Shown here: positions 5,715-31,880 of the stretch, piece by piece
How positions within the stretch are numbered: position 1 is the stretch's first letter
Layout of the letters: each line of letters begins with the position of its first letter
NCBI GenBank assembly: GCA_019359115.1
Contig: JAHHHW010000108.1
Span: forward strand, 1 to 47,960
Origin: Pelatocladus maniniholoensis HA4357-MV3
GTDB taxonomy: Bacteria; Cyanobacteriota; Cyanobacteriia; Cyanobacteriales; Nostocaceae
Length of the DNA stretch: 47,960 nt
Direction of reading: 5' to 3'
Notes under the pieces: model-generated
What the model saw: only the letters and a program-made list of their open reading frames with translations
Databases searched by the model: none
What the model was told of the DNA's origin: nothing
Position numbers and translations under genes: made by a program

Positions 5715-8700
5715 ATGGCTGCTTCTAGAATTGAAGTTGACTTTGCACAGTTACAAAAAGAAGTAAGCAATTGTGAAAAGGCTTTGCACAAACTGATACA
5801 GGTTAAAAAAATGATGTCTGCAAATGCAACTGAAACTCATAAGATCAATAGAAGATTGCAACAAAATCCTGTTGCTATTATTGGAATGGCTTCTATTTTC
5901 CCGCAATCTAAAAATTTACGGGAATATTGGGAAAAAATTATTCGCCAAGTTGATTGTATTACTGATGTTCCTCCATCGCGCTGGAATATTGAGGATTACT
6001 ATGATCCTAACCCCAAAGCCCCTGACAAAACTTACTGCAAACGTGGTGGATTCATCCCCGAAATCGAATTCAACCCAATGGAATTTGGACTTCCTCCAAA
6101 TCTTTTGGAAGTTACAGATGTTTCCCAGTTACTGGGTTTAGTTGTTGCAAAAGCAGCAATCGAAGATGCAGGCTATGGCGAAACAAGACAATTTAACCGA
6201 GAGCGTACTGGGGTGATTTTGGGTGTAGCCCTAGCAAGACAGTTAGCAATGCCATTGGCTACTAGATTAGAGTATCCCATATGGGAAAAAGTCTTAAAAA
6301 GTAGTGGCTTATCTGACCAAGATACGCAAAAAATTATCGAGAAAATCAAAAGTGCATATGTGCCATGGGAAGAGAACGCTTTTCCCGGTATGTTAGCAAA
6401 CATAGTTTCTGGGCGAATTGCCAACCGCCTAGATTTGGGAGGAATGAACTGTGTAGTCGATGCTGCTTGTGCCAGTTCATTAGGAGCATTAGCAATGTCA
6501 ATTAGTGAACTAGTCGATCATCGAGCCGACATGATGCTCACTGGTGGAGTTGACACTGACAACTCAATTGTTGCCTATATGTGTTTTAGCAAAACACCTG
6601 CTGTTTCCCCAAGCCAGAACACCAAACCTTTTGATGCTCAATCAGATGGCATGATGTTGGCTGAAGGTATTGGTATGTTGGTGTTGAAACGCTTGGAAGA
6701 CGCAATTAGGGATAATGACCGAATTTATGCAGTGATCAAAGGTATTGGCGCCTCCAGTGATGGTCGCTATAAAAGCATTTATGCACCTCGCCCAGAAGGT
6801 CAAGTCAGAGCTTTGCATCGTGCTTATGAAGATGCAGGATTTTCACCTACCAGTGTTGGTTTAATTGAAGCACACGGCACAGGTACCATGGTTGGAGATC
6901 CCACCGAATTTACAGCTCTCAAAGAAGTTTTTAGCGAAAACAATTCCCGAACACAACATATTGCACTTGGAAGTGTCAAATCACAGATTGGACATGCAAA
7001 AGCTGCTGCGGGTGCTGCAAGTCTAATCAAAACAGCATTAGCTTTACACCACAAAGTATTGCCAGCAACCATTAATATCACTCAACCACATCCTAAACTA
7101 GGTCTTGAAAACTCACCATTGTATTTGAATACAGAAACTAGGCCTTGGATTTGCTCTCAAGGAGAAGTGCCAAGACGTGCAGGAGTGAGTTCCTTTGGTT
7201 TTGGTGGCACAAATTACCACATTGTCTTAGAAGAATACTCTAGTGAACACGATCGCCCTTATCGTTTACATAACACCCCCCAATCAGTACTGTTATTTGC
7301 ATCAACACCTGAGCAGTTAAGATCACGCTGTCAAGAAATTTTGGGTCAGTTGCAATCTCCAGAAAAAGAAAGAAGTTATGCACAACTAATTGCAACGTGT
7401 CAATCATCAGAAATTCCTGCCACAAATGCTAGAGTAGGATTTGTCGCCGAATCTTTGACTGAGGCTTGCAAATTATTGCAGATCAGTATTGACTTGCTCA
7501 CCAATAAGTCACAAGCGGAATCTTGGGAGCATCCTCAAGGAATTTATTATCGCAAAACGAATCTGCCAACTGAAGGCAAAGTAGTTGCCTTGTTTTCTGG
7601 TCAAGGTTCTCAATACCTGGAAATGGGTCGAGAACTTGTCATCAACTTTCCTTGCTTGCGACAGACCTATAGTCAGATAGATAACCTTTTCTGCAAAGAT
7701 GGTCTCAAACCCGTTTCAGAAATAGTTTTCCCTCGCCCTGTTTTTGATCAAGCTCAAAAACAGTCACAAGTTGAAGCATTGCAAAAGACAGAATATGCAC
7801 AAGCAGCAATTGGAGCTTTCAGCGTTGGTCTGTATAAGCTATTACAACAGGGAGGATTCAAGCCAGATTTTCTCGTCGGACACAGCTTTGGAGAATTGAC
7901 GGCTTTGTGGGCTGCGGGTGTTCTCAGTGAGGAAGATTACTTTTTCCTGGTTAAAGCCAGGGGTCAAGCGATGGCTGCACCAAACGATCCTGAGTTTGAT
8001 GCAGGAGCTATGCTGGCAGTTAAAGGTGATGTCAGTCAAGTTGAAGAAATCATCAAGAACTTCCCTCTAGTGACGATCGCTAACTTGAATTCTCCAAATC
8101 AAGTGGTGTTGGCAGGAGCGAAAGCTGAGATCAGCCAAGTACAGGAGCAACTGAAAGCTAAGGCTTATTCTACCGTTTTGCTGCCTGTTTCAGCAGCTTT
8201 TCATACACCATTGGTAACTCATGCTCAAAAACCCTTTACTCAAGCAATTGAGGGAATTCATTTCAACGAGCCAATAATGCCTGTGTATACTAATGTGACA
8301 GGAAAGTGTTACCCGCAAGAACCACAAGCGATTCAAAAAATCCTGAAACAACACCTGATTAATCAGGTACATTTTAAGCAAGAGATTGAAAATATTTACG
8401 CTCAAGGTGGCTATTGTTTCATAGAGTTTGGCCCTAAAGGCATTCTGACTAAATTAGTCAAAGATATCCTCTGTGATCAACCTCATTTAGCTGTGGCTTT
8501 GAATGGCAGTTATCAAAAAGATAGCGATCGCTGTTTTCGAGAAGCTGTTATGCAATTACGTGTCGCTGGCTTATCTTTAAAAAACCCCGATCTCTACCAA
8601 CTTGAGCAGAAAACACCAGAAGTAAAAAACAATAAGCAGCTGATTGTCCAGCTAAATGGTTCTAACTACATCTCAGAAAAAAGAAAACAGGCTTTTGAAA

Positions 8701-11700
8701 AAGCTTTGCACAACGGACATCAAGTTAATCTCCCACACACAAAAGATAAATCCTCTGAGGTAAATACTCTGTCTACATCCCCTATTCAAAAGACAGATCA
8801 GACGCCCATCTCCCAACCTGTCAATACACACCGCAGCGAGTCCACACCAGTTGCAAACGGTAATAAACCAGAAAAATCTTCTGATCTAAACAAATACCCT
8901 CAAGCAACTCCTAAAGCACAAATGCAAACAAGTCCAGAACTTACTCAAAATTATCAACTAGTTTTAGATAGTTTAGAATATAGCCTCATAGAATTCAATC
9001 GCAATCAACGTGACGCCTTACATGTTCATGAACAATCTTTGAAGCATCAAACGGAATATACCAAAACCTTTTTCCAACTGATGCAGCAACAGAATTCTTT
9101 GCTGGTAAATGATCAATTCCCTCACCAAGATGCGGAAACCAAACAAATAGCCCTCTCCTACTCTGAGCGCAGCATCATGCGCTTTCACGAACATCATGGT
9201 GAAACACTGCGTGTCCACGAGCAATATCTAAACCATCAAACAGAACAAACCAAAAAGTTTTTCCAATTGCTCCAGCAACATTACAGTCAGCTACTTGCTA
9301 CCATAAACACGGAACAGCCCACAGTATTGCCATCAGAAACGACATCTATTGTTAGTGATGAACATACTTCTGTTGCTCCAGTTGCAGTCAATGATAGAAC
9401 TACCACATCTGTTGCTGTACCCACTCACAGCTTTATAACTAACTTTGAGCCTGTTTTAGTCAATGGCACAAGCAATGGTGTGAGTAATGGTGTTAGCAAT
9501 GGTACTTACAATAGCACTAGTAACGACACAAAAGCAATCTCCGTAAAAACCTCTGATACTCTTGTCATTCCAACTTCAGATGTGCCGTCATTACCTATAA
9601 CCATTGATGAACCCACCTTTATTCAGACTCTACTAAACATAGTCAGTGAAAAGACGGGCTATCCGGTAGGAATGCTGGAACTGTCGATGGATATAGAGGT
9701 GGACTTGGGAATTGATGCCGTTAAAAGAGTTGAAATTCTGGGATCATTACTGGAATTATACCCATATTTGTCCAAACCCAATCTCGAAGAACTAGAAAAA
9801 CGACGTAGCCTTGGTCAAATCGTAGAATATTTGCGGACTCTGCTTCCAGGAAGTACTGACGTTGAATCTGCACCTGGGAAGACAGCACAAGAAGTTGCTT
9901 GGAATGAGGCTAAGAGCAGCGAAGTAAGTGACGTGGGGACGCGGGGAACAAAAGACGCGAAGAGTGAAAATATACAAATAATTTCTTCCGCAGTTCCCCT
10001 CACTTTTACTACTTCCGAAGAAGCAACTTCACCAGTTTCCTCCTCCGATTTAACTGATCTCAGTCAAATTCTGCTAAACGTAGTTAGTGAAAAGACAGGC
10101 TATCCAGTTGAAATGTTGGAGCTGTCAATGGATATGGAGGCAGATTTAGGTATTGATTCCATTAAACGAGTTGAGATTTTGGGAGGGCTATTAGAATTAT
10201 GCCCAGATTTGCCTAAGCCCAATCCTGAAGAACTGGGAGAATTACGTACTCTTAGTCAAATCGTTGACTATATGAAACAACAGGCTAATGTGCTGGAAAA
10301 AAAAACACTTCTAGCCGAGCCTTGCAACCAGCAATCTGAAGTAAATCATAATATTCTCCGCAGTTCAGTTCATCTCAAATTCCTTCCTGAACCAGATATA
10401 TTAGATTTTTCCTTACCTGAGAAGTATATCGCCTTGCTTACTGATGATGGCACCCCCATGACTTCAGAACTAGCTCTAGCTCTTTTACAGGGTGATTGGA
10501 AAGTAGTTGTGTTGAGTTTTCCTAAAACCTTAATTGCAGATCAATTACCTTTACCAGAAGGAATCAATCGGGTTGTGCTGGCAAATTTGAGCGAGGAGCA
10601 TTTGCAACATCAGTTAGAAGCGATCGCTTCTCAGTATGGTCAAATTGCTGCTTTTATCCATCTCAATCCTGATAGCCATGATGATACAAGTAATCACGTC
10701 CGTTACTTGGAAACTGAGAAAGCACTTCTGCGTCACGTTTTTCTCATCGCCAAACACCTCAAAACATCACTCAATCAAGCAGCATCTCAAGGATGCAGTT
10801 GCTTCCTTAGCGTTGCTCGTCTTGATGGCCAGTTTGGGCTAGGCTGTAAAACTAATTTTGGTGCCATTAGTAGCGGATTATTTGGACTAACCAAAAGCCT
10901 GAATCAGGAATGGGAAACTGTATTTTGCCGTGCAATTGATCTAAGTCCCGATATAAATACTCAAACATCAGTACAGTATATCCTTAACGAACTTCATGAT
11001 CCCAATCGGTTAATTGCTGAAGTTGGATATAGCTCACAAGGACGAACAACGTTAGTGTGCAAGCCGGAGAGATGGGGACATGGAGGACATGGAGGACACG
11101 GAGGATATGGGGACACAGAGGACATTTTTTCTCCCTTGTCTGTCTCCTCTTCTCATTCTCTCAATCCCCAATCCCAAGTTTTTCTTGTCAGTGGTGGTGC
11201 AAGGGGAATCACAGCTGAATGTGTCATCAAGCTGGCGCAGTGTTATCAATGCAAGTTCATTCTGCTAGGGCGTTCGCCTGTAGATCCTGAACCTGTGTGG
11301 GCTGAAGGCTGCTCGACAGAAGGGGAATTGAAAAAGCGGATTATGGATGATTTTATCGCCAGAGGAGAAAAGCCTACACCTGCAATGGTGCAGAAAAAGT
11401 ACAAGGGTATTTCATCTAGACGAGAAATTCAAGCAACGCTACGAGCAATTGAGAAAGCTGGTGGACAAGCGGAATATCTGAGCGTAGATATCACCGATGC
11501 AACACAACTTCAAGAGCAAGTTGCTACAGCAGTTGAGCGTTTAGGTGAAGTAACCGGAATTATTCATGGGGCTGGTAATCTAGCAGATAAGCGAATTGAA
11601 AATAAATCAGAACGGGATTTTGAAATTGTTTATGCTGCCAAAGTTGCAGGTCTGGAAAACATGCTACATTGCGTGTCACCTAGCCAACTTAATTATTTAG

Positions 11701-12869
11701 TGTTATTTTCCTCGGTAGTTGGTTTTTACGGGAATATTGGTCAGTCAGATTATGCGATCGCCAATGAAATTCTCAACAAGTCCGCTCATCTTGTTAAACG
11801 CAACTATCCAAATTGTCATGTCGTTGCAATTAATTGGGGACCTTGGGATAGTGGCATGGTAACACCAGAATTGAAGAAAGCTTTTGCCGAAAGAAGCATA
11901 GAGACTATTCCTATAGAACTTGGAACTCAGATGTTAGTTAATGAACTAGCACCAGTAAATCAACAAACTACCCAAGTAGTAATAGGTAGTCCCTTAGTGT
12001 ACATACCTCAGTCGTCCAACCCAGATCTGAAAAAATATCGTATCCAGCGCCGATTAATCTTAGCAGCCAATCCATTTTTACAAGATCATGTCATTGCTGG
12101 CCGTCCAGTTTTACCTGCTACTTGCGCTCTCACATGGATTGCTAATACCTGTGAACAACTTTATCCTGGCTACAAAATCTTTAGTTGCTCAAACTTCAAA
12201 GTTTTGAAAGGAATTGTTTTTGATAAAACTCAGCCAACTGAATACATTTTAGATTTGCAAGAAATTTCTAAAAACGATGTTGATGAGATACAGTTTGATG
12301 CTAAAATATGGAGTAAGAATCTAGAAGGGAAAACTCGTTATCATTTCAGCAGCCAGCTAAAGATTAAGCAGAAAATTCCAGTTTCTCCTAATTATGATTC
12401 GCTTAATTTAAAAAGGGAAGAAATAACACTCGGTTCTAATAAATCACTTTATCAAAACGGGGCATCAAGCTTATTTCATGGAGCTTCTTTTCAGGGTGTA
12501 AAAACTATCTTAAATGCTAGCTCTGAAAAAATAACTCTAGAATGTGCTTTGTCAAATGTTGAGGAAAGAAAACAAGGGCAATTTCCTGTAAAAACTTTTA
12601 ATCCCTATATTGCAGATGTTCAAGTTCATGCACTTTGGCTTTGGACGCAATATTTTCATCAGCAAGGTTGTTTACCATCAGAAATTAAAACTTTTGAACA
12701 GTTCGCACCTATACCATTTGATAAACCCTTTTACGTTTCTTGCGAAGTAAAATTGAAGACAGAATCATCTGTGACTGCTGATGTGATTGCACATGATATT
12801 CAAGGGAAAGTATATAATCGCATGATTGGAGCAAAAGGAACTATTTTACCCAGAAGATTTAAAGATTAG
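5715..12869 (+). CDS. PfaA-like megasynthase KS-AT-ACP-ACP-KR-DH
   Basis: 2384 residues; iterative type I PKS of the secondary-lipid/PUFA-synthase type, related to HglE and myxobacterial Pfa2. Order: short N-terminal helix; KS (about 50-490; Cys252 in DAACASS, His in EAHGTGT and IGHAK); AT (about 585-900; FSGQGSQ, Ser724 in GHSFGE); a linker with two related helical repeats (about 1083-1131 and 1143-1194); two ACPs; KR (NADP site SGGARGI near 1827; SS, YAIAN); and a C-terminal DH (His2125 in DHVIAGRPVLP, Asp2301 in ADVQVH). ACP2 keeps the carrier serine (Ser1482 in LGIDSIKR). In ACP1 it is Ala1335 (LGIDAVKR), so ACP1 cannot be loaded. Low-complexity inserts lie near residues 1250-1275 and 1787-1800. 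There is no thioesterase. It is the first gene of the 14-gene run. Confidence 0.93.
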   Translation: MAASRIEVDFAQLQKEVSNCEKALHKLIQVKKMMSANATETHKINRRLQQNPVAIIGMASIFPQSKNLREYWEKIIRQVDCITDVPPSRWNIEDYYDPNPKAPDKTYCKRGGFIPEIEFNPMEFGLPPNLLEVTDVSQLLGLVVAKAAIEDAGYGETRQFNRERTGVILGVALARQLAMPLATRLEYPIWEKVLKSSGLSDQDTQKIIEKIKSAYVPWEENAFPGMLANIVSGRIANRLDLGGMNCVVDAACASSLGALAMSISELVDHRADMMLTGGVDTDNSIVAYMCFSKTPAVSPSQNTKPFDAQSDGMMLAEGIGMLVLKRLEDAIRDNDRIYAVIKGIGASSDGRYKSIYAPRPEGQVRALHRAYEDAGFSPTSVGLIEAHGTGTMVGDPTEFTALKEVFSENNSRTQHIALGSVKSQIGHAKAAAGAASLIKTALALHHKVLPATINITQPHPKLGLENSPLYLNTETRPWICSQGEVPRRAGVSSFGFGGTNYHIVLEEYSSEHDRPYRLHNTPQSVLLFASTPEQLRSRCQEILGQLQSPEKERSYAQLIATCQSSEIPATNARVGFVAESLTEACKLLQISIDLLTNKSQAESWEHPQGIYYRKTNLPTEGKVVALFSGQGSQYLEMGRELVINFPCLRQTYSQIDNLFCKDGLKPVSEIVFPRPVFDQAQKQSQVEALQKTEYAQAAIGAFSVGLYKLLQQGGFKPDFLVGHSFGELTALWAAGVLSEEDYFFLVKARGQAMAAPNDPEFDAGAMLAVKGDVSQVEEIIKNFPLVTIANLNSPNQVVLAGAKAEISQVQEQLKAKAYSTVLLPVSAAFHTPLVTHAQKPFTQAIEGIHFNEPIMPVYTNVTGKCYPQEPQAIQKILKQHLINQVHFKQEIENIYAQGGYCFIEFGPKGILTKLVKDILCDQPHLAVALNGSYQKDSDRCFREAVMQLRVAGLSLKNPDLYQLEQKTPEVKNNKQLIVQLNGSNYISEKRKQAFEKALHNGHQVNLPHTKDKSSEVNTLSTSPIQKTDQTPISQPVNTHRSESTPVANGNKPEKSSDLNKYPQATPKAQMQTSPELTQNYQLVLDSLEYSLIEFNRNQRDALHVHEQSLKHQTEYTKTFFQLMQQQNSLLVNDQFPHQDAETKQIALSYSERSIMRFHEHHGETLRVHEQYLNHQTEQTKKFFQLLQQHYSQLLATINTEQPTVLPSETTSIVSDEHTSVAPVAVNDRTTTSVAVPTHSFITNFEPVLVNGTSNGVSNGVSNGTYNSTSNDTKAISVKTSDTLVIPTSDVPSLPITIDEPTFIQTLLNIVSEKTGYPVGMLELSMDIEVDLGIDAVKRVEILGSLLELYPYLSKPNLEELEKRRSLGQIVEYLRTLLPGSTDVESAPGKTAQEVAWNEAKSSEVSDVGTRGTKDAKSENIQIISSAVPLTFTTSEEATSPVSSSDLTDLSQILLNVVSEKTGYPVEMLELSMDMEADLGIDSIKRVEILGGLLELCPDLPKPNPEELGELRTLSQIVDYMKQQANVLEKKTLLAEPCNQQSEVNHNILRSSVHLKFLPEPDILDFSLPEKYIALLTDDGTPMTSELALALLQGDWKVVVLSFPKTLIADQLPLPEGINRVVLANLSEEHLQHQLEAIASQYGQIAAFIHLNPDSHDDTSNHVRYLETEKALLRHVFLIAKHLKTSLNQAASQGCSCFLSVARLDGQFGLGCKTNFGAISSGLFGLTKSLNQEWETVFCRAIDLSPDINTQTSVQYILNELHDPNRLIAEVGYSSQGRTTLVCKPERWGHGGHGGHGGYGDTEDIFSPLSVSSSHSLNPQSQVFLVSGGARGITAECVIKLAQCYQCKFILLGRSPVDPEPVWAEGCSTEGELKKRIMDDFIARGEKPTPAMVQKKYKGISSRREIQATLRAIEKAGGQAEYLSVDITDATQLQEQVATAVERLGEVTGIIHGAGNLADKRIENKSERDFEIVYAAKVAGLENMLHCVSPSQLNYLVLFSSVVGFYGNIGQSDYAIANEILNKSAHLVKRNYPNCHVVAINWGPWDSGMVTPELKKAFAERSIETIPIELGTQMLVNELAPVNQQTTQVVIGSPLVYIPQSSNPDLKKYRIQRRLILAANPFLQDHVIAGRPVLPATCALTWIANTCEQLYPGYKIFSCSNFKVLKGIVFDKTQPTEYILDLQEISKNDVDEIQFDAKIWSKNLEGKTRYHFSSQLKIKQKIPVSPNYDSLNLKREEITLGSNKSLYQNGASSLFHGASFQGVKTILNASSEKITLECALSNVEERKQGQFPVKTFNPYIADVQVHALWLWTQYFHQQGCLPSEIKTFEQFAPIPFDKPFYVSCEVKLKTESSVTADVIAHDIQGKVYNRMIGAKGTILPRRFKD
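11069..11118. repeat. In-frame GGACATGGA-type tandem repeat
   Basis: Inside the megasynthase gene, about five degenerate 9-bp units (GGACATGGA, GGACACGGA, GGATATGGG) encode a His/Gly-rich stretch, W-G-H-G-G-H-G-G-H-G-G-Y-G-D. It sits between the two halves of the ketoreductase. A related G-rich segment at 9933-9966 (GTGGGGACGCGGGGAACA) lies between the ACPs. Both resemble short dispersed cyanobacterial repeats that inserted into linker regions without breaking the frame. Confidence 0.6.
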
Positions 12870-12870
12870 A

Positions 12871-12958: not shown

Positions 12959-15900
12959 ATGGAAAACTATGAACAAATTAAAAATCCTAAAGTAGCCATT
13001 GTCGGTATGGATTGCTTTTTAGGTGGTTGTCAAGGATTAGATGCTTTTGAACGCAGTATTTATGAAGCAAATCAACACTTTACTAACTTTCCTTATGAGA
13101 GATGGCAAGAAGTTAAAAACCAAGATATTTTGCTCAAAAACAATAATTTTGACACTGAATTTGCACCTTTAGGAGCGTATATCAAAGATTTTGAAATAGA
13201 TTTTTTGGATTTTAAATTAGCATCTGAAGAAGACAAATTCAAACCTCAAGAACTGTTGATGCTTAAGGTTGCTGACAATGCGCTCAAAGATGTAAAATTA
13301 AACAAAGGAAGCAGGGTGGCAGTTATTATTGTCGCCGCAACAGAACTTTCTCTTCGTATTCTTAAACCAGAAGCGAAAGACACTATTTCCAATCTCTGGA
13401 ATTTTGCAGATCCTTTATTCACACTAGTTGCCGAACAACATTCTATATTCAAAGCTTTGGAGGTTGCAAAAAAGCTACTTGCAATTCGAGAAGTAGATGC
13501 TGTTGTTGTTGGTGCTGTCGAGCTAGCTGAGAATAGCCTTAGTGTTTTAGTGCAAAATCAAACGGCAAAATCCAACACAGGTGTTAATACTTTAAGTTAT
13601 GACCAGAATGTTAATGGTTGGATGCTAGGCGAAGGTGCAGCCGCCGTAGTATTGAAGCTCCACAAAACAGCACAACAAGACAATGACCGTATCTATGCGG
13701 TAGTTGATGCTCTCAATATCTTGAAGGATAATTCTTCTTCTCACGCGATTCCTGACTCAAAAGCAGTCACGCAAGTATGTCAACTTGCTTTTGATTTGGC
13801 AGGTATTAAACCCAAGGACATTGGCTATCTAGAAGTTTTTGCCAGTGGGGTTCCTCAGCAAGATGAGTCAGAAATGCTAGGTTTGATTCGAGCTTATCAG
13901 ACTTCTGAGCCTGATCTGTGTTGTGCGATTGGTAGTGTCAAAGCCAACATTGGTCATACCTCTGCTGCATCAGGAATAGTCAGTTTAATTAAAACAGCAC
14001 TCTGTTTGTATCACCGTTACATTCCTGGTGTTCCTCACTGGTCTGCTCCCAAAATGCCGCAAATCTGGCAGAATAGTCCGTTTTATGTTGCTCCTGAATC
14101 AAAGCCTTGGTTTTTAGAGAAAGGAGCTACTAAAAGAATTGCTGCCATTAACAGTATGGAGATAGATGGCAGTTACGCACATTTAATTTTATCGGAGGAA
14201 GCAACTCAGATACATCGTAGCAGCAGATATTTAGAGCAAATGCCTTTTTATCTTTTTGCGATCGCAGCTGAGGATTGTTCTACATTATTAGAGCAGATCG
14301 GTTCCCTAGAACAAACAATTGCCAATTCCTCTTCTCTATTTGCTGCTGCAAGCATTACTTTTAAAGCTTTTCAACAGCGTCAAAATGCCACTTATGCACT
14401 GGCAATTCTCGGACGTAATCAACAAGAATTGACGCGGGAAATTCAGCGCGCTCTTAAAGGTGTTGCAGATGCTTTCAATACAGGTAAAGACTGGCAAACA
14501 CCTGTAGGTAGCTATTTTACGCCCAAACCATTGGGTAACAAAGGTAGTGTTGCTTTCGTTTATCCTGGTGCTTACAGTTCTTATCTTGGAATTGCCCGCA
14601 ATCTCTTCCGCTTGTTTCCCAAAATTTATGAAGATCCAATCATCAAAAGCGTTTACACTCGTGTCAACAATATAGAAAAAATTCTCTATCCCAGAAGTCT
14701 GAACAAATTATCAACAAGGCACTTAGAAAAGTTGGAACAGCAATTGATAGATGATCCAGTTGCAATGCTCGAATCTGAGGTTGGCGTTGCTGGACTATTG
14801 ACTGCTATTCTGAGAAATTATTTCCAACTACAGCCCCAATTTGCCTTTGGGTATAGCTTGGGTGAAACGAGTATGATGCTTTCTCAGGGTATCTGGACAC
14901 ACTTTCACGAAGGTAGTGAAGGCTTGAGTTCATCTGCTTTGTTTAAAACACAGTTGTCCGGCCCTAAAAATGCAGTTCGCAAATATTGGGAATTACCCCA
15001 GGAACAGGATAGTGAAGGTAAAGAGTTCTGGAGTACGTACGTTCTCATGTGTCCAGTTTCTCGCGTTCGAGAAGTTCTTAGACATGAGGAGAATGTGTAC
15101 TTAACTCTCATCAATACTCCAGAAGAAGTGGCGATCGCTGGTGATACAAAAGCCTGTCAAAGGGTGATTAAAACTCTAAATTGTGATGCTTTCAATGCTC
15201 CTTTCAATCATGTAATTCATTGTGAGCCAATACGTTCTGAATACGATGCACTTGTTAAACTAAATACCTTACCTATTCAAAACGTACCAAATACCGTTTT
15301 TTATTCTGCCGCAGAATACAAACCTATTACTCTTAACAGTGATTCTATTGGACACAATATTGCCAAAGTGCTTGTTCAACAGCTTGATTTCCCTCGGCTA
15401 GTTCAGCGCGTCTGGGACGACGGCGCCAGAATATTTATTGAAGTTGGTGCTGGAAATAACTGCTCAAGATGGATTAGTGGAAACCTCAAGCAAAAAGAAC
15501 ACATGATGGTTTCTCTAAATAAGAGAGGGATAGACGAGCATACTTGTATTGTTAAAGCATTAGTAAAGCTCCTCAGTCATAGGGTAAAAATGGACTTGTC
15601 CTCACTATATTCTCAAGTTCAAGAAAATAATATAAAAAGTCAATCTAAGCTTAAAACTATAACTTGGAACGGCAATGAATTGAACATTGCATCATTAAAC
15701 AATACAGACAAAAAAAAATTCCAAGATACAGTTTCAGGTATTTCGATTAATGGTGAAGAAAAACGACAGTATAACATACTGGATTTTAAAGAGTTTGAAC
15801 GTTTGGATCATTGTTTTAAGCACAATTCTGTAAAAAGTTTTGAATTTGCAGAAAAATCACAAAATTCAAATGTGAATACGATACAGGATGAAAATTCTCA

Positions 15901-18065: not shown

Positions 18066-18108
18066 GCTTGATTTGTATCGACCTACAATCATTTTTCCAA
18101 TTACAGTC

Positions 18109-20231: not shown

Positions 20232-20380
20232 TTTGTGCTGCACAGCGACTCTAGTCAGTCGTCTGTCATGTTTATTGCCACTCATTAATAATAATGAGTT
20301 TAAGTTAAGAAATGGTGCTATTTTGACAAACGACTTGGCTCATCATCCAGAGATTGAAGTACTGCTCCAGGTGGAATCAG

Positions 20381-22198: not shown

Positions 22199-22263
22199 AT
22201 ATTTTTTAAGGATTTCATAGTACATAAAGTATTTGATTTTATAGAACTCATAAACACAGACAT

Positions 22264-23496: not shown

Positions 23497-24882
23497 ATGA
23501 ATCACAGTGACTATGATGTCGTCATTATTGGAGGAGGTCCTGCTGGCTCTACTTTGTCTACTTTCCTGGTTCGCAAAGGACATCAAGTTTTGGTACTCGA
23601 ACGCGAGAAATTTCCCCGTTTTCACGTAGGCGAGTCTCTTTTGCCTGCAACCCAGCTGATCTGGGAAAAGCTAGGAATCGCTGAGTCATTGCAGAATTTT
23701 GGTAATACATTTAAATATGGTACGGAAATTCGGATGGGGCTTAATCCACAGCAATCTGAATATGAGTACAGCAGACAAGAATTTTATAACATTCCAAGAC
23801 AACGGCTTCATCAGCGTCCTTATGCCTATCAAGTAGAACGAAGCGAGTTTGATCTGTTTCTACTTAATCATGCTCGTCAAGAGGGAGTCACAGTTTTTGA
23901 GGAAGCAGTCGTCAAAGAAATCCTTTGGGAAGGTGACAAAGCAACTGGAATCCGTTGGAAAAACAAAGACAATATTGAATATATCACCAAAGCCAAATGT
24001 ATTGCTGATTGCTCAGGGCGGTACGCTTTTATCAGCAGAAGCCGTAAATTCCTGACTCCGAACAAAACGATCAAAACCTCGGCTGTATTTGGACACTTCA
24101 AGCATGTCACTCGTGCCTCTGGTATCCAGCAAGGCTACTTTAATGGATACTTGATTGAAAACGGGTGGATCTGGTTCATTCCGCTTGCATCAGACATCAT
24201 GAGTATTGGAGTGGTAATGAACGAGCCAGGAACAAGTTGGTGGAAGCAGAAAAGCTCAGAGGAAATTTTACTGACTTATATTAAGCAATATAAGTTTATC
24301 CAGGAGCGGTTTGAGCAGGCCGAACAATTTTCCAAAGTCCGAATGTTGCACAATCTATCCTACGCTTCAAAACACTCTGTGGGAAATGGCTGGATTCTTG
24401 TGGGAGATGCCAATTTCTTTGTTGATCCTCTTTTCTCTTCTGGGGTACACATCGCCTTTCGTTCAGCAGAAAAAGCAGCAGATGCTATTGATGGGTTTTT
24501 GAAGAACAATTGGGACAAAAAAGCTTTCCAATACTACCAAAAGTGGAGTCAGAAGGAGCATTTCCATGTTTCCACAACGATGGGACTCATGTACAAGATG
24601 CTGAAATACCGGGTTTCCATGGAGATTCTTGTCAAACTAACTGGCAAGTACAGCAATCACTGGGATAATCCACTACTGCGGCGCTTGGTTGCCTGGGGTA
24701 GTGGGTATTACGAAGAGTTCCACTTGGTACTTTATTGTTCTTGGATATTCTGCATTCTTCTGATCGCGATTGGCTGGGTGTATGAAAAGTTTTTGGGTAT
24801 CTCAGCTTGGAATACTCATCATGAGTTCAACTCAGAATCACCACAGGCGATCGCAAAATCTGTAGGAATCCTTGAGAAATGA
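23497..24882 (+). CDS. Flavin-dependent halogenase
   Basis: 461 residues; FAD-dependent halogenase family. It has the dinucleotide-binding motif GGGPAGS (residues 12-18), PRFHVGESLLP, a Lys73 candidate for the catalytic lysine (NTFKYGTEI), the halogenase signature WxWxIP (Trp224, Trp226, Pro229 in GWIWFIPL) and the flavin site GDANFFVDPLFSSG (303-316). These place it with phenol/pyrrole and carrier-bound substrate halogenases rather than generic monooxygenases. A hydrophobic C-terminal helix (about 413-433, YCSWIFCILLIAIGWVYEKF) suggests a membrane anchor, unusual for this family. The likely substrate is the resorcinol ring made by DarAB (inference). It needs a reduced-flavin supply, not encoded here. 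Confidence 0.87.
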   Translation: MNHSDYDVVIIGGGPAGSTLSTFLVRKGHQVLVLEREKFPRFHVGESLLPATQLIWEKLGIAESLQNFGNTFKYGTEIRMGLNPQQSEYEYSRQEFYNIPRQRLHQRPYAYQVERSEFDLFLLNHARQEGVTVFEEAVVKEILWEGDKATGIRWKNKDNIEYITKAKCIADCSGRYAFISRSRKFLTPNKTIKTSAVFGHFKHVTRASGIQQGYFNGYLIENGWIWFIPLASDIMSIGVVMNEPGTSWWKQKSSEEILLTYIKQYKFIQERFEQAEQFSKVRMLHNLSYASKHSVGNGWILVGDANFFVDPLFSSGVHIAFRSAEKAADAIDGFLKNNWDKKAFQYYQKWSQKEHFHVSTTMGLMYKMLKYRVSMEILVKLTGKYSNHWDNPLLRRLVAWGSGYYEEFHLVLYCSWIFCILLIAIGWVYEKFLGISAWNTHHEFNSESPQAIAKSVGILEK

Positions 24883-24999: not shown

Positions 25000-25299
25000 A
25001 TGAATCAGTCGGTGATTAATTCAAGTGCCAAGCAGTCTTACACAGCAGAAGAAATACAAGCCTGGCTAGTCTCTAACATTTCTGAGATGCTAGGAGTTGA
25101 AGCAGATGAAATAGATATTCGAGAACCTTTAGATAGTTACGGCTTAGATTCAGCACAAGGGATGGTTATTACCAGTAGAGCAGAGAAATTGTTTGGATTT
25201 AAGATGTCTCTTATTCTGTTGTGGCATTATCCCACTATTGAAGCATTAAGCAAGCGTTTAGCGGAAGAATTGGTAGATTCGGAATCATTTGAGATTTGA
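25000..25299 (+). CDS. Free-standing acyl carrier protein
   Basis: 99 residues; a PP-binding domain fills positions 15-95. The phosphopantetheine attachment serine is Ser51 in SYGLDSAQG. The sequence after it ([28 protein letters not shown]) is typical of PKS/NRPS-associated carriers rather than of housekeeping AcpP. It differs clearly from the tandem ACPs of the PfaA-like protein, so it probably carries another acyl chain: perhaps the substrate of the diiron enzyme, or a donor for DarB or the acyltransferases. It lies between the halogenase and the TubC-domain gene. Confidence 0.9.
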
Positions 25300-25465: not shown

Positions 25466-25536
25466 AGTTAACCTTTTTCTCGAAAACTTGTTTCTGAAAG
25501 CATATAAATACAATCATATTGAGAGATAGAGAAACT

Positions 25537-27408
25537 ATGAACGTACATGAACTTTTAGAAAACCTGACTCAAAACGGTATTGACTTGTGGGTTAACAATA
25601 ATAAACTAAATCTTCGTTCTCCCAAGGGGGTAATGACACCAGAAATACAGGCTGAACTAACTGCTCATAAAACCGAAATTTTAACCTTGTTACGCGATAG
25701 AGATATTGCTCTCAAAGCCGCTTCTGTTCCATTAGATATAGGACTCAGTCTACAAACAATTGGTCGTATAATCGGGGGATTTATTCAACAATCAAATATG
25801 GAATATAAGCCACCAGTGATTGATCCTAAAGTTATGGCTCAAAAGCTAACAATTACATTTAGACCATTACCGAAAAATTATAAGCAGCTAGAAGTTATTA
25901 AATTCCAAGAAGAATTGGCAATTAAACTCAAGGATTATGGAGTAAAAGTTTTACCTTGGAAAGAAGCAACAACCGAATTAAGTTATGAAATTAATTTACC
26001 AATAAACCAATTAAAGAAAAACTTCAAAATTAGGAGTGTTAAATCGGAAATAGATGCAGTAATTGATGTGGAAAAATCTCCTCGTTGTATCCGAAAATTG
26101 GGTGTATTGGCAGCAGAGAGTTTGTATCAAATATATTCTCGCTTTATCTTAAAAGATCGAGAAATTTCTGTTTCTAGAATAGCAAAATTGAGTAGTTGGG
26201 CTGAAGACCATGTAGCAAAATACATTGAAGATCCTACCAATACTCAAGTAATTACTTTAACAGAAATAGATAAAAAATTTACAAATCCTTTAATTTCTTA
26301 TCAAGAAAAAATCAATATTGGCTTAAATACTCTCATCAGAACATTTTCAGAGATGGTAATTGGAGTATCCAGTGAAAAAATTTCCATTTTAAATATGAAT
26401 CTTTCTGATTCTGTATTTCATAAAAATGAGATCGAACACTTTGTTTTAAACTCATTAGTGCCTAAAGTTTTTGTGCCGATATATCCACTTTTGCTGAGTC
26501 GATTTACTTTAGGGCAGTATAATCCTCATGAATCTAGCTATGCTAAAAAACTAGTAAAATTAGGTAATGATCTGGCATCAACAGGTTTATTTCCACCAGG
26601 TTTTAAACTGTGTGAAGTTATTAAAAGAAAATCTCATAGAGATATTGTTAACGTCATTGTGAATGGGAGGACAGGTGTCTCTTATGGTTTTGTTGCTTAT
26701 GCTGAACCTCCGCAATATGTTGGTAAGCCAGAAATAACTGAAAATGAGTGGCAAATTCTATTGTCGGTTGCGGGATTTAGTAGTGATGAATTTCGTCAGA
26801 ATGACCAAGGTAGATATTACATCAAAACCAAGATCAAAGGAGAATATAGATTTAAACAGATTCCAGATATTTGGCTTGTCAGTTCTCGTTCTGGCTCAAA
26901 CAAAACAAATTTAAATCTTGAAAGTGATATTATTCGGATTGGTTTGAAAGAAAAGTTATTTTTGCAATTACCACAGGGTATTCATCCAGAGTTAGTAGAT
27001 ATCAAACCTTCTTATGATATCTATGTCATGCTTGCTATTACTTTATCTGCTGCTTTATACACACCAGAAATGATTAAAGATGGTGCGCCAATCGTTCATT
27101 TCCACGGCTATCCAGCATCTGACTGGTTTAAAGCAAATGAATATTATGTTGGAATAAACAACCCTTCAGTTCCTTGTGGAACTTATGAATCAGGAGTACT
27201 AAATTTTTTGGGTATTTCTTGCATGGCAAATCAAGAGGTAGAAAATACAGCCCTAGTAAGTTTAGTAGAACCAGATCATGGCACAAATTTTATAGCTAAT
27301 GATTTGGAGTATCTAGTAGAAAGATTGAAGACTGGGTGTAAACAAGGACAAATTGAACTTGGTGGAAAACATTTTGCTTCTTTGAAAGCAAAAGCCAGCG
27401 ATCGCTAA
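25537..27408 (+). CDS. TubC-docking-domain protein, unknown function
   Basis: 623 residues from ATG 25537 (an upstream TTG at 25519 is less likely). Residues 1-52 (MNVHELLENLTQNGIDLWVN, MTPEIQAELTAHKTEILTLL) are a TubC N-terminal docking domain, normally found at the front of NRPS/PKS subunits. The remaining 570 residues match no family I know: no membrane helices, no carrier, condensation or adenylation motifs. They include conserved-looking stretches such as YGFVAYAEPPQYVG, IVHFHGYPASDWF and LVEPDHGTNFIAND. The HFHGYP and EPDHGTN segments could hold catalytic or metal residues. It sits between the ACP and two condensation-like acyltransferases, so docking to a partner subunit is likely. The function is open. 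Confidence 0.7.
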   Translation: MNVHELLENLTQNGIDLWVNNNKLNLRSPKGVMTPEIQAELTAHKTEILTLLRDRDIALKAASVPLDIGLSLQTIGRIIGGFIQQSNMEYKPPVIDPKVMAQKLTITFRPLPKNYKQLEVIKFQEELAIKLKDYGVKVLPWKEATTELSYEINLPINQLKKNFKIRSVKSEIDAVIDVEKSPRCIRKLGVLAAESLYQIYSRFILKDREISVSRIAKLSSWAEDHVAKYIEDPTNTQVITLTEIDKKFTNPLISYQEKINIGLNTLIRTFSEMVIGVSSEKISILNMNLSDSVFHKNEIEHFVLNSLVPKVFVPIYPLLLSRFTLGQYNPHESSYAKKLVKLGNDLASTGLFPPGFKLCEVIKRKSHRDIVNVIVNGRTGVSYGFVAYAEPPQYVGKPEITENEWQILLSVAGFSSDEFRQNDQGRYYIKTKIKGEYRFKQIPDIWLVSSRSGSNKTNLNLESDIIRIGLKEKLFLQLPQGIHPELVDIKPSYDIYVMLAITLSAALYTPEMIKDGAPIVHFHGYPASDWFKANEYYVGINNPSVPCGTYESGVLNFLGISCMANQEVENTALVSLVEPDHGTNFIANDLEYLVERLKTGCKQGQIELGGKHFASLKAKASDR

Positions 27409-27461: not shown

Positions 27462-28868
27462 ATGCTCTACGACAGAGAACTTTCTCCTTTGGAGCAAGTT
27501 ATAGAAATTGTGAATCGTCGTGCTAGCGCTTACAATATAGTCACGATTTGTCGAATCAACGGACTCCTCGACGAAGAAACCATCAGACAAGCTTTGGAAT
27601 TACTACAACTACGTCATCCTCGGCTTAACTCTCGGATTGTTGATAAGTTAGATAGTCTGCGCTTTGAAACTGGAGATATCCAGATTCCTTTACGTGTAGT
27701 TAAAAAACTGCATTCACAACAATCACAGGAAGTTGTTTGGGAAGAACTCAATCAAAAAATTGAGAGTGACAAAACTTTAATGCGAGTTGTCCTTGTTCAT
27801 CTCAAAAATGACAGCAACGTCAATTATTTGATTACAACAATACATCATGCGATCGCAGACGGTTTGTCATGTATACAACTGCATTCAGAACTTTTGAAAT
27901 ATTGCCAAAAAATCATATCTTTTGAACCAATAGAAGTTGTCAGCTTACCTGCACTACCATCGATTAAAAAACTCCTACCAGAATCAATGCAGAGATGGAA
28001 AGGTGCGCTGAATATCTTCTTGACCATATTCAAGCATGTGGTAAGAGATATGCGATACCGACCAAAAACTTTAAAGTTTGAAAAATTTGCACCCATAGAA
28101 TCACGCCGTACTGGTATTGTCCACCGAAAGCTTAACAAAGAGCAAACCACACAATTAATAAATATTTGTAGAAAAAACCAGACAACTGTACATGCTGCTT
28201 TGTGTGCGGCGATGTTATTTGCAGCAGGTAGAAAAATCAATGCTGGCAAAAAAACGAATGTGGGTGTAAGCTGTTGGTCAAGCATTAATCTGCGTAACCG
28301 ACTCAAACCAAAAGTTAGTGATGAGCATTTAGGTGTCTTGGTTTCCGGTGATATTTCCTGTCATACCCTAAAAATAAATACAGGCTTTTGGGATTTAGCG
28401 CGCAACAGAAGACAACAAATGGAAATAAATACAGAAGGTGATCAGGTCTTTTGTTCAGCTTTATTAATTGAGCCGTTAACCGATTTTCTAATCACATTTC
28501 CTCGCCAAATGTTTGCCACAGTAGGTGTCACAAATATAGGAAGAGTCAACATTCCTGCGGATTATGGTGTTTTTAAACTTGAAGAAATTAGCTTTGTTCC
28601 TGCATGGGGAGCATTTGGAGGTTTGTGTGTTGCAGTTCTCACTTTTGAAGAAAAAATGGTTTTGAATTTCATGTTTTCTGAGCCTGCAATTAGTCAGGAA
28701 ACAGCAGAAGTTCTCGCCGATAATGTCCTTGCTTGTATTTTTGAGGCTTGCAACAACGCAAAATTCACTTTTTCCGATCAAATTGTTGCACTTCCTCGGC
28801 ATCAGCTACCCTCAACTGCTCCTACTGCTTTGAGTGTTGCTCGTCGAGGTTCTGGACGCTATCAATAG
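27462..28868 (+). CDS. PapA5/condensation-like acyltransferase 1
   Basis: 468 residues; CoA/ACP-dependent acyltransferase superfamily (chloramphenicol acetyltransferase/condensation fold, PapA5-like). The catalytic motif HHxxxDG is HHAIADG, with His129 the general base and Asp133 structural. A later TNIGRVNI segment matches the PapA5/alcohol-acyltransferase type rather than the DFGWG of peptide condensation domains. Stand-alone size fits transfer of an acyl group from a carrier to an alcohol or phenol. It begins 53 bp after the TubC-domain gene and is followed after 50 bp by a close paralogue. An acceptor hydroxyl on the resorcinol is a reasonable guess. Confidence 0.8.
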   Translation: MLYDRELSPLEQVIEIVNRRASAYNIVTICRINGLLDEETIRQALELLQLRHPRLNSRIVDKLDSLRFETGDIQIPLRVVKKLHSQQSQEVVWEELNQKIESDKTLMRVVLVHLKNDSNVNYLITTIHHAIADGLSCIQLHSELLKYCQKIISFEPIEVVSLPALPSIKKLLPESMQRWKGALNIFLTIFKHVVRDMRYRPKTLKFEKFAPIESRRTGIVHRKLNKEQTTQLINICRKNQTTVHAALCAAMLFAAGRKINAGKKTNVGVSCWSSINLRNRLKPKVSDEHLGVLVSGDISCHTLKINTGFWDLARNRRQQMEINTEGDQVFCSALLIEPLTDFLITFPRQMFATVGVTNIGRVNIPADYGVFKLEEISFVPAWGAFGGLCVAVLTFEEKMVLNFMFSEPAISQETAEVLADNVLACIFEACNNAKFTFSDQIVALPRHQLPSTAPTALSVARRGSGRYQ

Positions 28869-28918: not shown

Positions 28919-30304
28919 ATGCTCTATGACAGGAAACTTTCTCCCTACGAGCAAGCGATGGAGATTTTGAATCGTCGTGCGACAACATACAATATAATTA
29001 CGATTTGTCGAATTAACGGACTCCTCAACAAAGAAATTATTAGACAAGCTCTTGAGTTGTTACAAGCACGTCATCCTCGTCTTAAATCGCGGATTATCGG
29101 GAAATTAAATAGTCTGCGCTTTGAAAGTGGAGACATCCAGATTCCTTTACGTGTTGTGACAAAGCTGCACCCACAACAGTGGCAAGAAGTTGTTCAGGAA
29201 GAACTCAATCAAAAAATTGAAAGTGACAAAAGTTTAATGCGAGTTGTCTTTGTGCGTCTGAAAAATGAGAGCAACGTCAACTATGTGATCACAACAATAC
29301 ATCATGCGATCGCAGACGGTTTGTCATGTATGCAATTGCATTCAGACCTTTTGAGATATTGTCAAAAACTCATATCTTTAGAACCGATAGAAATTATCAG
29401 CTTGCCTGCATTACCACCGATAACAAAACTTTTTCCAGACTCAATGCAGGGATGGAAAGGTCGCCTAAATCTCTTTTTAGGGATGTTGAGACTTTTGTTA
29501 AGGGATCTTCGATATCGACCAAAAACTTTAAACTTTGAAAAATTTGCACCAATTGAATCACGCCATACTGGTATTGTTCACAGAAAGCTCAACAAAGAGC
29601 AAACCACACAATTAATAAATGTTTGTAGAAAGAACAGGACAACGGTACACGCTGCTTTGTGTGCAGCGATGTTGTTTGCAACAGGTATAAAAATCAATGC
29701 TGGCAAAAAAACAGATTTGAGTGTCAGCTGTTGGTCTCCCATTGATCTGCGTCATCGACTCAAACCAGAAATCACTGATGAACATTTGGGTGTTTTGGTT
29801 TCCGGTGATATCTCATGTCATACATTAAAATTAAATACACGCTTTTGGAATTTAGCTCGCAACAGAAGACAACAAATGCAAGAGACTGTGGAAAGCGATC
29901 GCGTCTTTTGTTTACCCATGTTAACCAAGCTGTTAATTAAGTTTCTTCTGGCTTACCCTCATCAAGTATTTTCAACAGTCGGTGTCACAAATATAGGTAG
30001 AGTCAATATTCGTTCAGATTATGGTGTATTTGAACTTGAAGAAATCAGCTTTGTTACTTCTAATGCAGCATTTAGAGGACTGTGTGTTGCAGTTCTCACT
30101 TTTGAAGAAAAAATGTATTTGAATTTCATGTTTTCTGAACCTGCAATTAGTCAGGAAACAGCAGAAATTCTCGCCGATAATGTCCTTGCTTGTATTGTTG
30201 AGGCTTGTAACAATAAAAAATTCACTTTTGCTGATCAAATGATTGCCATTCCCCGGTATCCTGCTTTGAGTATTGTTCGTCGAGTCCCTAGACACCGTCA
30301 GTAA
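28919..30304 (+). CDS. PapA5/condensation-like acyltransferase 2
   Basis: 461 residues, a tandem paralogue of the preceding gene with clear similarity from end to end, also at DNA level (for example, the N-terminal MLYDRxLSPxEQ and the region around the active site are nearly unchanged). HHAIADG and TNIGRVNI are conserved, so both copies should be active. Differences cluster in the central part and the C-terminus, where the first copy has a longer tail. Two copies may acylate two positions or use two donors; recent duplication without divergence is the alternative. Antisense frames seen in both genes are shadows. Confidence 0.8.
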   Translation: MLYDRKLSPYEQAMEILNRRATTYNIITICRINGLLNKEIIRQALELLQARHPRLKSRIIGKLNSLRFESGDIQIPLRVVTKLHPQQWQEVVQEELNQKIESDKSLMRVVFVRLKNESNVNYVITTIHHAIADGLSCMQLHSDLLRYCQKLISLEPIEIISLPALPPITKLFPDSMQGWKGRLNLFLGMLRLLLRDLRYRPKTLNFEKFAPIESRHTGIVHRKLNKEQTTQLINVCRKNRTTVHAALCAAMLFATGIKINAGKKTDLSVSCWSPIDLRHRLKPEITDEHLGVLVSGDISCHTLKLNTRFWNLARNRRQQMQETVESDRVFCLPMLTKLLIKFLLAYPHQVFSTVGVTNIGRVNIRSDYGVFELEEISFVTSNAAFRGLCVAVLTFEEKMYLNFMFSEPAISQETAEILADNVLACIVEACNNKKFTFADQMIAIPRYPALSIVRRVPRHRQ

Positions 30305-30382
30305 AAAATTTTCTGAATAGCAATCTTGATCTTTACAGCCTACATAACTTTAAAGAACTAGTTTAAAAAGTGAGTAAGTTTT

Positions 30383-31384
30383 ATGAACCTCTCTGGACAA
30401 ACACTTCTCATTTCAGGAATTGGTGGATTTATTGGCTTGCGGACTACTGAACTAGCCATAGCGCGAGGGATGAAAGTCCGGGGATTAGGACGTTCCGCAG
30501 AAAAAGTCAAAAAAGCACAACAACTAGGTGCTGAGATCATAGTTGGTAGTGTCACCGATCCTGCAACTGCTGAATTAGCTTGTCAGGGAGTAGACATCGT
30601 TTTGCATACGGCTGGTGTTGTCCAAGAAACTGGACAAATTAAGCATTTTCGTGAGATCAATGTGGGTGGAACCGTGAATATGGCTAAAGCTGCCAAAAAT
30701 GCTGGTGTCAAAACCTTTACTCATCTCTCCAGTGCGATGGTTTACGGTTTCAACTATCCCGATGGCGTTACAGAAGAAGGGCCACTGCGTGGTGAGAATA
30801 ATCCTTTCTGCCAAACAAAAATAGAAGCAGAAGCAGCACTCTTACAACTGGATACTCCACCAGATTTTGGAATCATCATTATTAGACCAGGAGATGTTTA
30901 TGGACCAGGGAGTATTCCCTGGATAGTCCGACCAATAGTGATGATGCAGCGAAAATTATTCGCATTGATTAACGATGGACAAGGAGTTATCAACCATTTA
31001 TATATTGATAATCTGATTGATGCCATCTTTCTTGCTATGGAAAAAGAAGTATATGGAGAAATTTTTAATATCACTGATGGTAAGAATACTTCTTGGAAAA
31101 AATATTTTACCAACTTAGCTGAAATAGCAGATTTACCTGTACCTTTTTCTTTATCAAAAGATGAAGCTAAATTATTTCTTCGGGTACGCGAACAGGGACA
31201 AAAACTTTTTCGGAAAAAGCCTGATTTGCTGCCAGAAACTATGGATTTTCTCTCTCGTCCCTATGCTTATTCTATTTCCAAAGCCCAAAGAATGTTAAAT
31301 TTTGAAGCAAATATTAACCTAGAAGAGGGAATGAGACGCACCCAGAAATGGCTGCAAATAACAGATATTCAAAAATTAATTTAA
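30383..31384 (+). CDS. Extended SDR (3beta-HSD/epimerase type)
   Basis: 333 residues, extended short-chain dehydrogenase/reductase. It has an NAD(P) site GIGGFIG near the N-terminus, VLHTAGVVQETG, the active-site Ser region HLSSAMVYG, and INHLYIDNLIDAIFLAME as in 3beta-hydroxysteroid/sterol dehydrogenase-like proteins. The canonical YxxxK is FCQTK: Phe142 (codon TTC) replaces the catalytic Tyr, with Lys146 kept. It therefore may be slow, use another proton donor, or bind without redox chemistry. As the penultimate gene of the run it could tailor a keto or hydroxy group on the chain; this is inference. Confidence 0.8.
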   Translation: MNLSGQTLLISGIGGFIGLRTTELAIARGMKVRGLGRSAEKVKKAQQLGAEIIVGSVTDPATAELACQGVDIVLHTAGVVQETGQIKHFREINVGGTVNMAKAAKNAGVKTFTHLSSAMVYGFNYPDGVTEEGPLRGENNPFCQTKIEAEAALLQLDTPPDFGIIIIRPGDVYGPGSIPWIVRPIVMMQRKLFALINDGQGVINHLYIDNLIDAIFLAMEKEVYGEIFNITDGKNTSWKKYFTNLAEIADLPVPFSLSKDEAKLFLRVREQGQKLFRKKPDLLPETMDFLSRPYAYSISKAQRMLNFEANINLEEGMRRTQKWLQITDIQKLI

Positions 31385-31409
31385 GAAGTAAACTACTCCT
31401 TAAAAATAT

Positions 31410-31880
31410 ATGATTATACAAAAAATTACTCTCTTTCATCTGTTTGTAATCTCTAATTTTGTCATTTTGGGTTTGGCAACAGCAAATCAAAATTCCACTA
31501 TCAACCTAACTGTTGTAGTAAATGGAATCCGTAATCAAAATGGGCAAGTTTGCCTGAGAATTTATAATAATGAACAAGGATTTCCCCTGAGTGATACTAG
31601 TGAAGTACAAAGTGGTTGTGTTCAAATTCAGGGAAGTTCTATCAAAAAAGAATTCTACGGATTGCAGCCTGGAACTTATGCTGTCGCCGCAGTAGATGAT
31701 CAAAATGGAGATTACAAACTAAACAGAGACTTTCTAGGTATTCCACAAGAGGGTTTTGGTGTGTCTAATAATCCAACAATATCAGTTAAAACTGGTATAC
31801 CAAATTTTAAAAACTCAAGTTTCCCACTGAGGAAGAATGCAACAATTAGGATTGCGATGAAATATTCGCTAGATCCATAA
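31410..31880 (+). CDS. Secreted DUF2141 protein
   Basis: 156 residues. N-terminal signal peptide (about 1-25, FVISNFVILGLATA), then a DUF2141 domain: NLTVVVNGIRNQNGQVCLRI, YGLQPGTYAVAAVDDQNGD and NRDFLGIPQEGFGVSNN. Two cysteines (QVCLRI and SGCVQ) may form a disulfide. DUF2141 proteins are exported beta-sandwich proteins of unknown function. It starts 25 bp after the SDR gene and is the last gene before a strong terminator, so it belongs to the operon. A role at the cell envelope in handling or delivering the product is possible but untested. Confidence 0.8.
   Translation: MIIQKITLFHLFVISNFVILGLATANQNSTINLTVVVNGIRNQNGQVCLRIYNNEQGFPLSDTSEVQSGCVQIQGSSIKKEFYGLQPGTYAVAAVDDQNGDYKLNRDFLGIPQEGFGVSNNPTISVKTGIPNFKNSSFPLRKNATIRIAMKYSLDP

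Follow-up and report, generated by a model that had tools for sequence, protein, structure and literature searches.

Cyanobacterial hgl-like islands are a second type of hgl island, common in heterocyst-forming cyanobacteria, and their product is unknown but is not the heterocyst glycolipid (PMC11804610; papers are cited here from excerpts, and what we attribute to each holds for the excerpted text). Extra hgl islands occur in 259 of the 494 genomes that possess an island (PMC11804610). Here we describe a fourteen-gene operon at positions 5715 to 31880 of a single 47,960-nt contig (JAHHHW010000108.1, hereafter the window) from the 6.7 Mb genome of Pelatocladus maniniholoensis HA4357-MV3. Genes 1–3 and 9–12 and a divergently oriented exporter of the DevBCA type correspond to the hgl-like island (PMC11804610), and between the two gene blocks lie DarA-, DarB-, CylK- and CylC-like genes and a predicted flavin-dependent halogenase (Table 1). 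Other genomes carry the cluster too, and its lipid-synthase half has already been published as the hgl-like island (PMC11804610). What appears to be new is the combination of an hgl-like island with a bartoloside-type cassette and a flavin halogenase.

Parts of this gene set recur in other described systems. Bartoloside-type (brt) loci, found in genomes G036 and G078, carry DarA, DarB, CylK-type and CylC-type genes along with DevBCA homologs. Their identity to the window genes is only 33–60%, however, the gene order differs, brt has a glycosyltransferase, and no dedicated synthase, flavin halogenase or PapA is among the matched genes. A glycosyltransferase and no dedicated polyketide synthase (PKS) – the gene set that marks brt – is not what the window cluster contains. 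The nostochloroside (ngl) cluster of Nostoc punctiforme pairs a lipid PKS with homologs of CylC and CylK, but it has a fatty acyl-AMP ligase (FAAL) and a glycosyltransferase, and it was selected because the resorcinol-forming CylI is absent from it (PMC10849952). Gene 10 homologs lie near a CylK-like gene at loci such as that of G295, which we provisionally labelled ngl-like. The cylindrocyclophane (cyl) pathway shares the CylC and CylK families, whereas its ring comes from the type III PKS CylI, and its CylK has Asp at position 440 and forms C–C bonds.

Surveys of these enzyme families also touch on such loci. The dialkylresorcinol class made up 8 of 95 CylC clusters, spread across Nostocales, Pleurocapsales and Chroococcales; some of these may be the same loci as those described here, and three CylC clusters with a ‘nitronate monooxygenase’ may be PfaD-type clusters (PMC8406957). 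For CylK, the excerpted survey found no DarAB in clusters beyond bartoloside, and such additional halogenases as accompanied CylK homologs, few in number, belonged to the Fe(II)/2-oxoglutarate type (PMC8916777). The present loci run against both statements, in having DarAB with CylK and in the type of halogenase. No characterised cluster of this composition turned up in the open-access literature (supplements, preprints and subscription papers lay outside the search), in agreement with a first-pass annotation of the window, which knew of none.

All fourteen open reading frames (ORFs) lie on the + strand, separated by 15–219 bp with the listed starts, or by up to 237 bp if gene 10 begins at the ATG at 25537. 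The first-pass annotation had proposed this co-directional run and had read it as a mix of a Pfa/heterocyst-lipid-type synthase, DarAB, a CylC/CylK-type pair and a flavin halogenase; the ORF list and gap measurements bore out the layout, and domain and family searches supported the mix of modules. G505, G507 and G430 share the 14-gene order, as does G429, where the genes are distributed over two contigs, so the arrangement is not due to chance. In G350 (PCC 7521), gene 8 is missing between CylC and the acyl carrier protein (ACP), and the contig ends within gene 11. A pattern scan of named genomes with CylC returned nine loci, six of them close (78–85%): four Fischerella strains, Dendronalium and Cyanomargarita.

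Like the published hgl-like islands, the window has an HglE- and HglC-like synthase and an HgdCB-type exporter (PMC11804610), with HgdCB homologs standing beside an HglE/F/G- and HglC/A-like synthase encoded in few ORFs. The genome's own hgl island lies on another contig, with an ORF for an ACP-thioester reductase (HglB-like) and a 1535-aa HglC-like ORF, and the genome has two PfaD copies. Consistent with a lineage distinct from that hgl island, a PfaD tree – built by a quick method and weak at the deepest split among island copies – places the window copy among the island copies and outside the nine-row clade of the own hgl copy (Shimodaira–Hasegawa-like approximate likelihood ratio support, 100). 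We surveyed 217 Nostocaceae genomes; these are related, and the counts below are non-independent and given without p-values. PfaD is present in 215 of them. Island stretches from G142, G292, G383, G447, G094 and G379 contain genes 1–3, an acyltransferase, an ACP and gene 10, with no Dar, Cyl or halogenase genes. Common to the window and the fetched island loci are PfaD, the ACP, gene 10 and acyltransferases, to which the window adds DarAB, CylK, CylC, the flavin halogenase, a short-chain dehydrogenase/reductase (SDR) and a DUF2141 protein; the excerpted text of PMC11804610 contains none of the words ‘resorcinol’, ‘halogen’ and ‘PfaD’.

The unit reaches beyond 5715–31880 to include the divergent ATP-binding cassette (ABC) exporter at 318–3512 and the conserved 104-aa gene beside it. 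One to three exporter genes have homologs upstream of the synthase at nine loci that reach that far (G390, G142, G292, G383, G315, G447, G413, G414 and G506). The 104-aa protein is 81–100% conserved beside hgl-like islands at the loci reaching there; it matched neither Pfam nor PHROG, and it is possibly a dedicated regulator.

Gene 5 passed the NF005293 (StlD/DarB) cut-off of 450 with 578 bits, and its 514 bits against NF053539 (resorcinol_DarB) were under that model's cut-off of 550. Gene 4 had no Pfam or NCBIfam match over cut-off, only a weak flavodoxin match at best, and its predicted structure (mean predicted local distance difference test score, pLDDT, 44.5) was too poor for use; we name it DarA because it adjoins DarB and is 49–50% identical to the gene beside DarB at bartoloside-type loci. 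Gene 7 gave a weak AurF match, under the Pfam cut-off, and carries the QExxH and HxxDExxH motifs that define CylC diiron halogenases (PMC12101540). CylC, CylK and the flavin halogenase all retain intact catalytic motifs.

DarB orthologs (at least 76% identity, setting aside two matches at 41–42% in longer frames) occur in 14 of the 217 genomes, in every one with a DarA-like gene adjoining. In 11 of these, DarB lies less than 9 kb from the island PfaD, in three arrangements; G438 has a PfaD of another type 23 kb from DarB, and in G420 and G434 the contig or stretch with DarB carries no PfaD. DarAB, alone or accompanied by CylK-CylC, is found inside the operon, after PfaD and ahead of the ACP, in three genera (g1, g27 and g20); G390 and G417 have it next to the island in different layouts. 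CylK orthologs (at least 69%) and full-length CylC orthologs (at least 71%) occur in the same nine genomes, all nine keeping the order DarA-DarB-CylK-CylC; distant CylK-like genes (40 further genomes) and CylC-like genes (21 further genomes) were left out of these counts. The genes found between DarB and the ACP vary: CylK-CylC-halogenase, CylK-CylC (in G350), fatty acid desaturases, one or two in number (G506 and G414; by Pfam), or none at all (G413).

On balance, we moderately favour the interpretation that this locus is an hgl-like island with a built-in bartoloside-type dialkylresorcinol cassette and a flavin halogenase, which together make a lipid by a single route. Gene content and order, the intact motifs, the co-occurrence and the history of exchange are what the sequences show; every chemical step of this route, the origin of the chains and their export are inferred. 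The synthase of genes 1–3 would make a long acyl or β-ketoacyl chain, and CylC would chlorinate an ACP-bound acyl chain, perhaps on the gene 9 ACP. DarB and DarA would couple two chains into a 2,5-dialkylresorcinol, a free ring position of which the flavin halogenase would chlorinate. On the CylK homolog, an oxygen nucleophile – a fatty carboxylate or a hydroxyl – would displace the alkyl chloride, yielding an ester or ether; hydroxyls would be esterified by the PapA-type enzymes, and DevBCA would export the lipid to the envelope. The product class is likely to be a halogenated dialkylresorcinol lipid, as the first-pass annotation suggested.

Several observations weigh against this interpretation. 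The operon has no FAAL that would bring the CylC substrate onto an ACP, and gene 10 is functionally uncharacterised. G350, G390 and G417 lack the flavin halogenase, and in G438 it is outside the DarAB locus. Asp440 is highly conserved among CylK homologs that keep R105 and Y473 (PMC8916777), which speaks against Glu, the residue in gene 6, as typical of the whole CylK family, and the Asp/Glu contrast is based on two biochemically known enzymes. Finally, bartoloside chains derive from primary metabolism (PMC7081238), and both the DarAB-CylK-CylC cassette on a 35.7 kb contig of G420 and the DarAB genes of G434 have no island genes adjoining – G420 having PfaD and gene 10 on a different contig from its cassette. 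The island therefore need not feed DarB.

These last points, and the fact that an island without a cassette is the common state, fit a model of two neighbouring pathways, in which the island product is a separate lipid and the Dar cassette draws on ordinary fatty acids, as in bartolosides, and is simply a neighbour within the operon. We consider this model possible but rather less probable than a joint route, given that DarAB sits within the operon in three genera and beside the island in G390 and G417, and that DarB and the island PfaD lie so close together in most DarB genomes.

Aryl chlorination in the joint route depends on gene 8, which carries the flavin adenine dinucleotide (FAD) motif, the WxWxIP motif and an FxPxSxG-type motif, all of which we take to be marks of flavin-dependent halogenases. 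Its score is over the cut-off of the Pfam Trp_halogenase family, and its nine best Protein Data Bank (PDB) matches are named halogenases or alkylhalidase. Gene 8 might instead be a related flavin oxygenase or reductase, only the alkyl chain being chlorinated: lower-ranked PDB matches include a flavoprotein/dehydrogenase and reductases, and NCBIfam equivalog cut-offs were unreached (CmlS, 198 of 900 bits). The WxWxIP and FxxPxxSxG-type motifs, the Pfam score and the best PDB matches make this doubtful, as does the confinement of gene 8 orthologs to genomes with DarB (six of the 217 genomes, from three genera, all six with DarB). Five of these six have the gene inside the cluster, and G438 has two copies away from its DarAB locus, one of them beside a CylK-like gene. 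At that site, L122 (G438:C443, 3496–7243), the halogenase ortholog (66%) adjoins a CylK-like gene with Asp at 440.

Gene 6, an SBBP propeller protein, matches CylK, the only solved relative that we found, over residues 21–600 (541 bits), and both domains are present. R51 and Y410 of gene 6 correspond to R105 and Y473 of CylK, which are retained in all 13 homologs aligned. At CylK position 440, the role of which was examined previously (PMC8916777), gene 6 has E380. Glu stands at this position in 12 of the 13 homologs, the exception being G438 with Asp, as in CylK itself, and in all eight orthologs aligned (G430's own copy lying outside that set). Glu is also found in G036, whose CylK-like gene carries both published brtB primer ends exactly, implying that Glu is the residue of BrtB or a close relative; in the G078 gene, one primer end is exact and the other has two mismatches. 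Gene 6 does not carry Asp440, the mark of a C-alkylating, cyclophane-type CylK.

Bartolosides are alkylated at C-2, which is hence unavailable (PMC7081238). Because gene 6 has Glu at 440, as at the brtB locus, and C-2 is occupied in a dialkylresorcinol, the comparison favours O-alkylation by gene 6, to an ester or ether, rather than cyclisation. A product formed by C–C bonding, whether a cyclophane or a C-alkylated dimer, is very improbable: the match to CylK, the conserved R105 and Y473 and the free ring positions C-4 and C-6 as possible nucleophiles would allow it, but Asp440 is replaced by Glu, the C-2 used as nucleophile by CylK is alkylated (PMC7081238) and the ring would come from DarAB, not from CylI. 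We rejected a cyclophane on residue 440 and the blocked C-2; the first-pass suggestion of a ‘possibly cyclised or esterified’ product accordingly survives in its second half, as a predicted ester or ether.

Phylogenies of the operon genes conflict with one another. The DarA tree groups the window's genus (support 100/99), and PfaD identity within the genus is 93–96%. The DarB tree, by contrast, leaves the four genomes of this genus ungrouped (approximately unbiased (AU) test, p 3.6e-8), and grouping of the window, G505 and G507 is rejected by the CylK tree (p 9.6e-7) and the CylC tree (p 6.1e-5); genus groups came from the genome tool, and the identity table was inspected before the AU tests were run. 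The nearest DarB to that of the window is in G506 (93%), then G413 (90%); G505 is nearest to G430/G429 (89 and 88%) and G507 to G350 (87%). As the DarB, CylK and CylC trees conflict with genus and DarA and PfaD do not, the trees indicate that the DarB-CylK-CylC segment (19080–23481) has been exchanged between lineages, with PfaD and DarA of the same operon following genus. Selection on chain choice is one reading of what drives this exchange.

We tentatively raise a broader idea, possible rather than probable: hgl-like islands may serve generally as a platform for making lipids that are exported to the envelope, their specificity being set by a segment that can be exchanged. The swapped DarB-CylK-CylC of Fischerella-type strains would convert the island chain to dialkylresorcinols with both aryl and alkyl chlorination, and CylK would cross-link these via oxygen into esters, ethers or oligomers – which would be the first hgl-like product class. 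The joining of a widespread lipid synthase of unknown product to ring-lipid and chlorinating enzymes offers a concrete way to identify that product. Strains with the same island and DarAB, DarAB plus desaturase, DarAB plus CylK/CylC, or the full set provide handles in a UV-active ring, chlorine isotopes and chloride dependence, and residue 440 emerges as a testable candidate switch between O- and C-alkylation.

Table 1. Features of the operon and its upstream neighbours in the window. KS, ketosynthase; AT, acyltransferase; KR, ketoreductase; DH, dehydratase.
Feature	Position	Strand	Remarks
ABC ATPase (DevA-like)	318–1013	-	PF00005
FtsX-type permease (DevC-like)	1039–2295	-	PF02687
HlyD-type adaptor (DevB-like)	2307–3512	-	PF13437
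104-aa protein, no family match	3761–4075	-	conserved at this place
105-aa small ORF 5′ of gene 1	4853–5170	+	62–94% homologs at same place
Gene 1, HglE/PfaA-like synthase KS-AT-ACP-ACP-KR-DH	5715–12869	+	
Gene 2, chain-length-factor-like KS (no Cys) + PfaB-like AT	12959–16129	+	
Gene 3, PfaD-type enoyl reductase	16265–17914	+	TIGR02814, 664 bits (cut-off 449)
Gene 4, DarA-like, flavodoxin-like N-terminus	18073–19026	+	probable start 18109
Gene 5, DarB/StlD-type ketosynthase	19080–20231	+	NF005293; Cys/His/Asn motifs
Gene 6, CylK/BrtB-type alkyl-halide-using enzyme	20354–22198	+	probable start 20381
Gene 7, CylC-type diiron halogenase	22264–23481	+	QERYH and HFLDESFH motifs
Gene 8, flavin-dependent halogenase	23497–24882	+	GGGPAG, WIWFIP, FVDPLFSSG
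Gene 9, stand-alone ACP	25000–25299	+	PF00550
Gene 10, TubC_N docking domain + ~570 aa, no family assigned	25519–27408	+	
Gene 11, PapA/condensation-type acyltransferase	27462–28868	+	HHAIAD motif
Gene 12, second PapA-type acyltransferase	28919–30304	+	HHAIAD motif
Gene 13, SDR reductase	30383–31384	+	
Gene 14, DUF2141 protein	31410–31880	+	

In the backbone synthase, Pfam detects one ACP in gene 1, and we read a second from its motif. In the first of these two tandem domains, counted along the protein, the phosphopantetheine Ser is replaced by Ala1335; Ala is found there in the window, G505 and G507, Pro in G506, and Ser is kept at the other examined loci showing two ACP sites. One ACP of gene 1 looks inactivated in the window's genus. 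The KS-like part of gene 2 has no nucleophile Cys – at residue 158, within ‘AEQHS’, we read Gln in its place, a feature also of chain-length factors – and gene 2 is therefore probably not an active KS; its residues 447–890 match the PfaB acyltransferase. In the own hgl island, gene 2 aligns to the 1535-aa HglC-like ORF but has no counterpart of its N-terminal KS, and gene 1 aligns to two stretches of the same island (C107, 36125–41554 and 33604–35298). The individual hgl letters that we give to genes 1 and 2 are in part presumed assignments.

Gene 10 is not restricted to islands. Its homologs pass the E-value limit in 116 of the 217 genomes: in 6 the match is to TubC_N alone, and 110 have near-full-length homologs, at 124 places. 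At least 61 genomes have a homolog within 20 kb of PfaD (99 PfaD places used). Because 25 of the 124 places have a CylK-like gene close by but none of the PfaD places used, gene 10 also belongs to other clusters – some of the 110 genomes' homologs among them – and it serves more than one kind of lipid cluster. Beyond TubC_N, it showed no significant match to any solved protein, and its predicted structure (mean pLDDT 35.1) was too poor for use. Among the remaining genes, genes 11 and 12 each match the other copy of L009 and L010 at 74–79%. The own hgl island carries two paralogs of gene 13 (57% and 66%) and, near DevBC homologs, a gene 14 paralog (60%).

The first-pass annotation had the operon closed by a single intrinsic terminator, which did not hold up: a scan to 32300 and inspection of the sequence showed none behind gene 14, and no run of T follows the inverted repeat GTGGC-N6-GCCAC at 31940. 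Promoter and terminator scans returned sites no more numerous than expected from shuffles (for terminators in 3500–6000, two found against 1.0 expected). An IS200/IS605-type pair, consisting of an OrfB/TnpB-like gene and a Y1 transposase (32175–33988), adjoins the 3′ end of the operon.

More distant relatives of the cassette genes were also observed. Other families of the order (e.g., L131 in G020) have DarB-like domains with 38–46% identity, for the most part within longer frames of ~540–670 aa; such domains were seen in 37 of 388 genomes from the order. On a linear Streptomyces plasmid (L148, NZ_CP109562.1, 3580–7675), a ketosynthase III gene is followed by a DarA-like gene (29%) and then an FAD-dependent oxidoreductase gene – possibly a resorcinol cluster, to judge by these gene families.

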